The notes under the pieces: model-generated | Seen by the model: the letters and a program-made list of their open reading frames with translations, nothing else | Databases searched by the model: none | What the model was told of the DNA's origin: nothing | Origin: an uncultured Bacteroidales bacterium | GTDB lineage: Bacteria; Bacteroidota; Bacteroidia; Bacteroidales; Paludibacteraceae | DNA length: 51,348 nucleotides | Assembly (NCBI GenBank): GCA_903901975.1 | Contig: CAIUTB010000157.1 | Coordinates: 1-51,348 of the forward strand | Direction of reading: 5' to 3' | Position numbers and translations under genes: made by a program | Shown: piece after piece, positions 16,678-18,275 of the stretch | Layout: every line of letters starts with the position of its first letter | Position numbering within the stretch: position 1 is the stretch's first letter

Positions 16678-16723
16678 AATTTCCAATTTCCAATTAAAAA
16701 TATTCCATTGGAAATTGGAAATT
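16678..16723. repeat. 17-bp inverted repeat between DUF362 and polyferredoxin genes
   Basis: A perfect stem of 17 bases (16678-16694 with 16707-16723; arms built from AATTTCCAATTTCCAAT) and a 12-base loop. There is no T tract, so it is not a classic terminator. A third partial copy (AATTGGAAATT) at 16728-16738 runs up to the next gene. Confidence 0.75.
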
Positions 16724-16745: not shown

Positions 16746-18275
16746 ATGAAATATCTTAAGAAAATCCGTGTCGGATTGTCACTCCTTTTTTTTATTCCCA
16801 TCCTGTTATTTTTCCTTGATTTTACGGGGAAATTGCCTACTCAGTTACATCAATTATTGAGTATTCAGTGGATTCCTGCATTATTGTCAATGGACTTCAT
16901 CATTTTAGGGGTTTTACTTTTACTGAGCTTATTATTCGGTCGGATTTATTGTTCTGTCATTTGTCCACTCGGTGTTTTTCAAGATATTGTTACCTGGAAG
17001 ACACGCCTTTTTCGCAAAAAAAAGAAATTCCGCTACGAATATGCCAAACCACAAAACTGGATCCGATATTCCATTTTGGCACTTACTATTATCGTATTTA
17101 TTTTTGGAAGTTCATTTCTGGTTTTATTACTCGACCCATACAGTACTTTCGGAAGAATCAGTTCTCAGTTATTTCGTCCTTTAGTTATTTTTGCCAATAA
17201 TGGTTTATCTCATTTGCTGGGCAAAACAGGCAATTATTCCGTTTATGAAGTAAAGCAACTAAGCTTTATTCCACTGGCCTTCAGTCTTGCGTTTTTATTT
17301 TTCTTAGTTGTAACAACCATGTCCTGGACTAAAGGTCGTTCATATTGCAATACAATTTGCCCCGTTGGTACAGGATTAGGCTTACTATCAAAATTCTCAA
17401 TATTCAGAATAGCAATAAACGAATCATCGTGTGTTCGTTGCGGTGCTTGTGAGCGTAAATGCAAATCACAATGCATTGATAATGATACAATGAAAATTGA
17501 TGAGACTCGTTGTGTGAGTTGTTTTGATTGTTTGTCATCCTGTAAAAAAGACAGTATTCATTACGAATACCGATATAAGAAACAAACTACCAGTGTTACA
17601 GAACCAAAAGTAAGTTCGGGTAGAAGAACATTTTTATTGACTACGGGTGCAATTATTAGCACTGCTGCATTTGCAAAGCCCAGAAAAATTATTTCAAAAA
17701 ATGATTCTATTCTTTCGCGTATGCCCATTATGCCTCCGGGAGCAGGAAGTATGGAGCATTTTAAGACTCATTGTACCGCTTGTCAGATATGCATTACCAA
17801 ATGCCCCATGCAAGTATTGAAACCTGCTGCACTCCAATATGGTATTTCTGGTATCACACAACCACATTTGGTATTTTCTACCGAAGTTTTTTGCAGCTAC
17901 GATTGTAATATTTGTACAACCGTTTGCCCTACCAGTGCATTAAAAAAACTTCCGATTGAAGAAAAGAAACTGGCTCAAATCGGCGTTGCTAAATTCCGGA
18001 AGGATAAATGTATTGTTTTCACAGAAGAAAAAGATTGTGGGGCATGTTCAGAGCATTGTCCTACACAAGCCGTACACATGATTGATTATAAAGACGGACT
18101 TACAATTCCTGAAGTCACACAAGATCTATGCACCGGTTGCGGGGCTTGTGAATCAATTTGTCCTTCAAAACCCTATGTTGCAATTTACGTTGAAGGCGTA
18201 AGTACACAACTCAAAGCTAAAAAACCAACCGATGCTAAAAAGTTTGATAAGAAAATTGATGATTTTGGGTTTTAA
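16746..18275 (+). CDS. NapH-NapG-like membrane polyferredoxin with internal Tat motif
   Basis: The protein has 509 aa from ATG 16746. Residues 9-28, 43-64, 107-130 and 172-192 are four membrane helices, with the NapH/CcoG-type motifs CSVICPLG (69-76) and CNTICPVG (201-208). Two 4Fe-4S sites follow (Cys 229, 232, 235, 239 and 256, 259, 262, 266). At 291-310 comes SGRRTFLLTTGAIISTAAFA, a twin-arginine signal with a hydrophobic stretch. The rest carries four more cysteine clusters (343-353, 383-394, 431-438, 462-472), as in NapG/MauM ferredoxins. The likely role is quinol oxidation with electron transfer to a periplasmic partner. Its place after tatAC and the Tat-exported DUF362 protein supports export of the C-terminal half. 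The terminal oxidoreductase is not in the window. Confidence 0.88.
   Translation: MKYLKKIRVGLSLLFFIPILLFFLDFTGKLPTQLHQLLSIQWIPALLSMDFIILGVLLLLSLLFGRIYCSVICPLGVFQDIVTWKTRLFRKKKKFRYEYAKPQNWIRYSILALTIIVFIFGSSFLVLLLDPYSTFGRISSQLFRPLVIFANNGLSHLLGKTGNYSVYEVKQLSFIPLAFSLAFLFFLVVTTMSWTKGRSYCNTICPVGTGLGLLSKFSIFRIAINESSCVRCGACERKCKSQCIDNDTMKIDETRCVSCFDCLSSCKKDSIHYEYRYKKQTTSVTEPKVSSGRRTFLLTTGAIISTAAFAKPRKIISKNDSILSRMPIMPPGAGSMEHFKTHCTACQICITKCPMQVLKPAALQYGISGITQPHLVFSTEVFCSYDCNICTTVCPTSALKKLPIEEKKLAQIGVAKFRKDKCIVFTEEKDCGACSEHCPTQAVHMIDYKDGLTIPEVTQDLCTGCGACESICPSKPYVAIYVEGVSTQLKAKKPTDAKKFDKKIDDFGF

Follow-up and report, generated by a model that had tools for sequence, protein, structure and literature searches.

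The DNA analyzed in this study (hereafter, the window) is a stretch of 51,348 nucleotides from an uncultured Bacteroidales bacterium of the Paludibacteraceae. Its plus strand harbors a run of four genes, in the order tatA, tatC, a gene for a DUF362 protein whose N-terminus is of Tat type, and a NapH-NapG fusion gene (Table 1), flanked by a MaoC-like gene upstream and a LysE-type transporter gene downstream. The tatC of the run was the sole TatC match in its own genome, and tatA homologues adjoin tatC in related loci; the tatAC arrangement has been described as usual in Bacteroidetes (PMC3827258). A scan for promoters and terminators gave signals at chance level. Additionally, a perfect 17-bp inverted repeat with 12 nt between its arms was found at 16678-16723, within the 78-nt gap between the DUF362 and fusion genes, and is possibly an RNA hairpin or the remnant of a mobile repeat.

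Table 1. Features of the tatA-tatC-DUF362-fusion run, with positions in the window (residue numbers refer to the fusion protein; the arrow marks a candidate cleavage position)
Feature	Position	Strand	Basis
tatA, 75 aa	14630..14857	+	Named from its own sequence and its position ahead of tatC
tatC, 269 aa	14857..15666	+	Overlaps the tatA stop; Pfam TatC, 5.3e-55; TIGR00945 above cut-off
DUF362 protein, 311 aa	15732..16667	+	Pfam DUF362, 6.6e-48; N-terminal Tat-type signal MKRRDFFKSAALVGL; LarA-like fold
NapH-NapG fusion (polyferredoxin), 509 aa	16746..18275	+	Open frame; NapH and NapG family matches
NapH-like half, residues 1-275	16746..17570	+	Four helices, CX3CP motifs C69/73 and C201/205, two-cluster ferredoxin domain C229-C266
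Tat motif and TM5, residues 291-310	17616..17675	+	R294 conservation; weak TM5 hydrophobicity
Candidate signal peptidase I site A308-F309-A310↓K311	17667..17678	+	xxA↓polar pattern at the TM5 end
NapG-like half, residues 311-509	17676..18272	+	Four 4Fe-4S motifs, C343-C472

A first-pass annotation had described the frame as a fusion of NapH and NapG, and the family models bear this out: NapH models fit the first half, and the NapG and MauM/NapG models fit the second (residues 287-475 and 324-472, respectively). All family scores (54-80 bits) were far under the NCBI curated cut-offs (NapG, 70.3 vs. 269; NapH, 66.2 vs. 234; NapH/MauN, 79.9 vs. 213). The AlphaFold2 model of the fusion had a pLDDT of 84.7, with residues 279-319 mostly below 50, and five of its helices (2-24, 51-64, 104-119, 176-196, and 293-308) were chosen as TM1-5, consistent with the earlier prediction of four membrane helices ahead of the RR segment. 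The loop charges favor both ends of the NapH half lying inside. Twenty-eight cysteines were invariant in 45 aligned sequences and form seven sets of four: one of C69/73/201/205, two in the ferredoxin domain (229-266), and four beyond TM5. The two CX3CP motifs of the first set were counted as a single site to agree with the three cytoplasmic clusters of Tooke et al. The four cysteine clusters proposed to follow the RR segment correspond to the four sets beyond TM5, and the earlier total of six is replaced by seven, as predicted by motif only. Comparison of the fusion sequence with solved structures returned ferredoxin-type proteins (best 60 of 116 matches), and no Foldseek match to such structures was found at E ≤ 0.001.

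The motif SGRRTFLLTTGAIISTAAFA lies exactly at residues 291-310, as first reported, with the twin arginine at 293-294. We compared it in 80 homologue loci, which were the best 80 of at least 407 confirmed relatives (at least 589 candidate stretches) and are therefore biased to close relatives. In the window and these best 80, R294 was present in all 81 sequences, and position 293 was occupied by R in 58, K in 22, and L in one. When read by eye, 10 of the 22 K293 sequences had KRR and so keep an RR pair, and the other 12 had KR only. Thus, the RR pair, whose survey across homologues had been proposed as a check on the Tat reading, is kept in 68 of these 81 sequences but lacking in 13 (12 KR and one LR), which have the segment without the pair, the combination named in advance as speaking against a Tat signal. 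The Tat consensus is kept beyond the pair, with F at R294+2 in 68 and L at R294+3 in 66 of the same 81. Since the linker ahead of R294 was unconserved in this set, the invariance of R294 itself goes beyond chance. A second set of 29 relatives' loci plus the window, which overlaps the 80-locus set in part (L003 and L033, for example, are identical to members), had RR in 29 of 30 sequences and KR in one.

Lysine in the Tat twin-arginine motif has been reported as poorly tolerated (PMC7317946). The 12 KR-only homologues (L051, L053, L057, L059, L068, L069, L070, L074, L089, L090, L097, and L105) span Bacteroidota, Ignavibacteriota, Fibrobacterota, and Desulfobacterales and represent a natural set for KR tolerance. 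The LR sequence (L107:7989-9617, Phocaeicola oris) was the sole one of the window and best 80 of at least 407 in which the first position is neither R nor K; its genome has TatC, and its aldo/keto reductase (AKR) partner keeps RR. In two same-genus genomes (L118 and L119), the linker ahead of RR is longer than that of the window by 43 and 35 residues, respectively, indicating that linker length is free.

TM5 had the lowest hydrophobicity of the five helices in 79 of 81 sequences (the window and the best 80 of at least 407). In the window, its Kyte-Doolittle value was 1.26, compared with 2.41-2.74 for TM1-4 (Tooke et al. used a dG scale), and five K/R occur in the 26 residues from R294+14 onward. 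K or R within these 26 residues was found in 79 of the same 81 sequences. A weak TMD5 and positive charges after it have been shown to force the hand-over from Sec to Tat (PMC5449189).

In one relative from the phylum (genome G173, locus L113), the two halves are encoded as two genes, with a DUF362 ORF upstream of the split pair. The NapH ORF ends in KKKQDG, with its stop at 2986-2988, and overlaps the start of the NapG ORF (ATG at 2981), which begins with the RR segment and reads MDKSRREAIKKGFLL. Judged by this sequence, the RR segment of L113 is an ordinary N-terminal Tat-type signal.

Fusions of NapH with NapG having five TMDs and three plus four predicted clusters were described by Tooke et al. 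in 2017, and reporters placed after TMD5 of one member were exported Tat-dependently (PMC5449189). Their hosts include chloroflexi, nitrospirae, and euryarchaeota, with Latescibacteria, Caldithrix, and Anaeroarcus added in Table 5; Bacteroidetes come up once in that paper, in connection with YkuE (PMC5449189). Compared by description, the window fusion has in common with the polyferredoxin of delta proteobacterium MLMS-1 (Q1NSB0) a NapH-like then a NapG-like half in one chain with five helices, seven 4Fe-4S sites (three on the cytoplasmic side and four in the exported part, assigned by motif alone), RR directly before TMD5 (conserved with the exception of 12 KR and one LR among the window and best 80 of at least 407), a weak TMD5 (on the Kyte-Doolittle scale), and positively charged residues beyond it. 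Insertion of such fusions by both Sec and Tat is therefore not new. The first-pass annotation had considered dual targeting to be established for the Rieske proteins of actinobacteria and hardly any others; the Rieske precedent stands, but NapH-NapG polyferredoxins, which are themselves experimentally supported (PMC5449189), had been overlooked. Rieske proteins such as Sco2149 likewise begin with helices inserted by Sec and end with a helix inserted by Tat and an Fe-S domain, but differ in domain and cofactor and usually have three helices. Each half of the fusion also matches its family in the NapH and NapG of periplasmic nitrate reductase, whereas the window protein is one chain, scores below the family cut-offs, and comes from a genome in which no molybdopterin oxidoreductase was found.

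The genome sample comprised the window's own genome and those of relatives, 60 in all; 39 of these had a fusion match at E ≤ 1e-60. In 17 of these 39, tatC was located within 1.6 kb of the fusion on the same strand (coordinates compared by hand), 14 times upstream (1.0-1.5 kb) and three times downstream (340-380 nt), and DUF362 lay between tatC and the fusion in all 14 upstream cases. Within the same-genus group (61-77% identity, window included), tatC was upstream in 14 of 15 loci; in the fifteenth (G009), the contig ends 55 bases from the fusion gene. Co-occurrence of the fusion with TatC tells little because 295 of 296 phylum genomes have TatC, as do 54 of 60 relatives and 44 of 48 named genomes; the four named genomes without a TatC match (those of L070, L109, L063, and L095) are all MAGs. 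The fusion itself (E ≤ 1e-40) was present in 30 of the 296 phylum genomes, each at least 90% complete, indicating a scattered distribution.

DUF362 adjoins the fusion in 26 of 30 loci from relatives' genomes, window included. Among the best 80 of at least 407 relatives, DUF362 was directly upstream in 51 loci, with its end within 62 nt of, or overlapping, the open frame of the fusion in 46 of the 51, and a Tat-motif AKR with C-terminal 4Fe-4S motifs (domain content confirmed by Pfam for one AKR) was directly downstream in 20. The two never occurred together in these 80 loci, and neither was present in nine, three of which have fewer than 400 bases upstream. Nineteen AKR starts from this set were inspected: 17 had RR, one had RK, and in one the motif position was not visible. 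In a quick maximum-likelihood tree, with its root unplaced and its deepest forks weak, the choice between DUF362 and AKR needs one change, and the AKR rows sit in one clade of 23 (20 AKR and three neither; SH-aLRT 100).

The DUF362 protein has no iron-sulfur motif of its own, and R3 of its Tat-type signal was invariant in 37 aligned sequences. Its AlphaFold model (pLDDT 87) matched the N-terminal fold of LarA, as far as a predicted model can be compared. The partner has 12-16% identity to LarA lactate racemase but differs from it in having a Tat-type signal and no C-terminal LarA domain. A profile search against solved structures gave two matches, at E of 0.61 and 0.64. LarC is needed for the nickel-pincer cofactor. 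We did not find LarC (PF01969) in the 98.6% complete genome of the window, and it was present in 9 of 60 relatives, including 6 of the 39 with the fusion; such a cofactor is disfavored for the DUF362 protein. No paper joining DUF362 with Tat and Bacteroides or Bacteroidota was found in the open-licence literature, and the portions of it consulted for DUF362 contained no treatment of an exported redox role. A second DUF362 protein in the same genome (L124:1072-2217, minus strand, contig C161) has no signal and carries two-cluster ferredoxin motifs of its own.

With the architecture, motif conservation, and linkage read directly from the sequences, the whole is probably best explained by a NapH-NapG protein served by two translocases. 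Sec/YidC would insert helices 1-4 during translation, so that both ends stay in the cytoplasm, and TM5 would be too polar, and too basic on its far side, for Sec to finish. The four NapG-type clusters would be built in the cytoplasm before export, and the internal RR motif would pass TM5 and the folded domain to the TatAC encoded in the same run. Tat dependence of TM5 has been shown for a relative and may by analogy extend to the window protein, the topology of which we infer, as we do the direction of its electrons. The dual targeting put forward in the first-pass annotation is well supported by the conserved motif, the weak TM5 and its charges, tatAC in the run, and the split NapG starting with RR, and we consider dual Sec/Tat insertion of the fusion very likely. 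The up to seven 4Fe-4S clusters may then form a chain from the cytoplasmic face to the periplasm, with electrons entering from quinol, as they do for NapGH, or from reduced ferredoxin and ending at the co-encoded Tat-type DUF362 protein. Such an electron wire to the periplasm is likely, and the fusion probably delivers electrons to an exported oxidoreductase. Gene linkage points to the DUF362 protein as the likeliest receiver in this operon, an assignment that we propose tentatively. The points against this scheme are the 13 of 81 sequences without an RR pair, the 29 of 80 loci without an adjacent DUF362 (both for the best 80 of at least 407), and the uncertainty of AlphaFold about residues 279-319.

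The single chain is in question, since in many homologues the end of TM5 resembles a signal peptidase I site. Among 107 distinct TM5 regions from 110 sequences, [AVILSTM]xA↓[QKDENR] occurred in 94, compared with 50.6 ± 4.7 in 300 shuffles, which wipe out the hydrophobic-to-polar order, and the related sequences compared are not independent; the strict AxA↓polar form occurred in 45 (24.2 ± 4.1 shuffled), and seven regions had not even the loosest form. The A↓Q class was in excess (47 vs. 7.0 ± 2.6), whereas A↓D/E (19 vs. 17.8 ± 3.7) and A↓K/R/N, the window's own class (37 vs. 32.9 ± 4.6), were at chance level. Other residues at -1 were near or under expectation (L, V, I, T, S, and M) or mildly over it (G, 36 vs. 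25.7 ± 4.4). In a cruder count, 44 of 107 regions had Ala just ahead of the first strongly polar residue, with a helix core of 28% Ala. Twenty-five representatives below 55% identity had xxA↓polar in 20 cases, compared with 9.6 ± 2.2 in 500 shuffles (largest 19), and in one and none at the ends of TM1 and TM3, respectively, two helices expected to have the same orientation as TM5. However, the TM3 end has an excess of its own, xxL↓polar in 16 of 25 (6.3 ± 2.2 shuffled), so that such an excess is by itself no sign of cutting. At the N-terminal signal-like starts of neighboring ORFs, Q was at +1 in 41 of 53 motif-bearing starts, among 135 candidates. Taken as a sequence pattern, the TM5 end suggests a signal peptidase I site, and does so more strongly in homologues with A↓Q than in the window protein.

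The fusion might accordingly be a precursor, inserted by Sec and Tat as proposed and then cut by signal peptidase I at A310↓K311. The products would be a NapH-like, five-helix membrane protein and a periplasmic NapG-like ferredoxin, either soluble or loosely attached. This agrees with Tat export and differs on the persistence of one chain. It is favored by the excess in 94 of 107 regions and 20 of 25 representatives, by A↓Q being typical also of the neighbors' signal-like starts, and by the separate genes of L113. On the other side, the excess is carried by A↓Q and the window's class is at chance; the cruder Ala count, the equally strong excess of another kind at TM3, the seven regions without a site, and the relatedness of the sequences also speak against it, and Tat signals likely descend from cleavable ones. 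In addition, when the MLMS-1 polyferredoxin was fused to MBP in E. coli, the product was seen in the membrane at close to its full mass, and the AmiA construct was given an added cleavage site (PMC5449189). Cutting of the window protein is therefore possible but doubtful. If it occurs, the fusion would be a polyprotein fixing a 1:1 ratio. An extension of this idea, which we regard as rather unlikely, is a redox polyprotein yielding, in equal amounts, a NapH-type quinol dehydrogenase and a four-cluster periplasmic ferredoxin that serves interchangeable exported oxidoreductases, namely the LarA-fold DUF362 in most lineages and the AKR-ferredoxin in one clade. This would be the Tat counterpart of the cytochrome b/c1 precursor (fbcH) of Bradyrhizobium, which is cut; that precedent was not found among the matches listed in the open-licence literature.

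The RR segment could instead be a relic, with TM5 exported by Sec or the C-terminal half remaining cytoplasmic, as the 13 of 81 sequences without the pair (the window and best 80 of at least 407) and the short, weakly hydrophobic TM5 would allow. However, R294 is invariant within an unconserved linker, tatAC lies in the gene run, and Tat dependence was shown for a relative of the same layout (PMC5449189); we consider a relic improbable. NapH and NapG models are the top family matches, which would suit a genuine NapGH quinol dehydrogenase serving nitrate respiration, but this reading is already contradicted and scarcely credible: the scores (66-80 bits for NapH and 70 bits for NapG) compare with cut-offs of 213-269, and the neighbors are tat and DUF362. 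A Nap context was rejected, since the genome, which is 98.6% complete, gave no PF00384 (molybdopterin oxidoreductase) match, whereas 11 of 14 control genomes did, and the fusion is therefore unlikely to be part of Nap.

The two-translocase reading would extend this little-studied class of membrane proteins to gut and environmental Bacteroidota, in which translocase genes can adjoin the gene of their substrate. It would also connect DUF362 with an exported electron chain through its gene position, its fold, and, in one clade, its exchange for a different redox enzyme, and it makes testable the role of DUF362 outside the cytoplasm and the cutting of dual-targeted proteins after the Tat step. The tatAC linkage, the DUF362/AKR partners, and the native cleavage-like site of the window and its homologues were not found in the sections of the description by Tooke et al. 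considered here, and neither this linkage, nor the DUF362/AKR exchange, nor a conserved cleavage-like site was found in the open-licence literature searched. Searches of the same literature on AKR and polyferredoxin in Bacteroides, on Tat and NapH in Parabacteroides, and on the tatC neighborhood gave nothing on these points among the matches listed. The constant genetic partners of the fusion and the possible cutting site between its halves look new. We know of no experiment on any Bacteroidota member of the fusion family.

In 17 of the best 80 of at least 407 loci, from the DUF362 and AKR groups alike, a small membrane protein weakly resembling an ECF transporter component (below the Pfam cut-off; e.g., L098:6047-6586) is encoded no more than 5 kb from the fusion.
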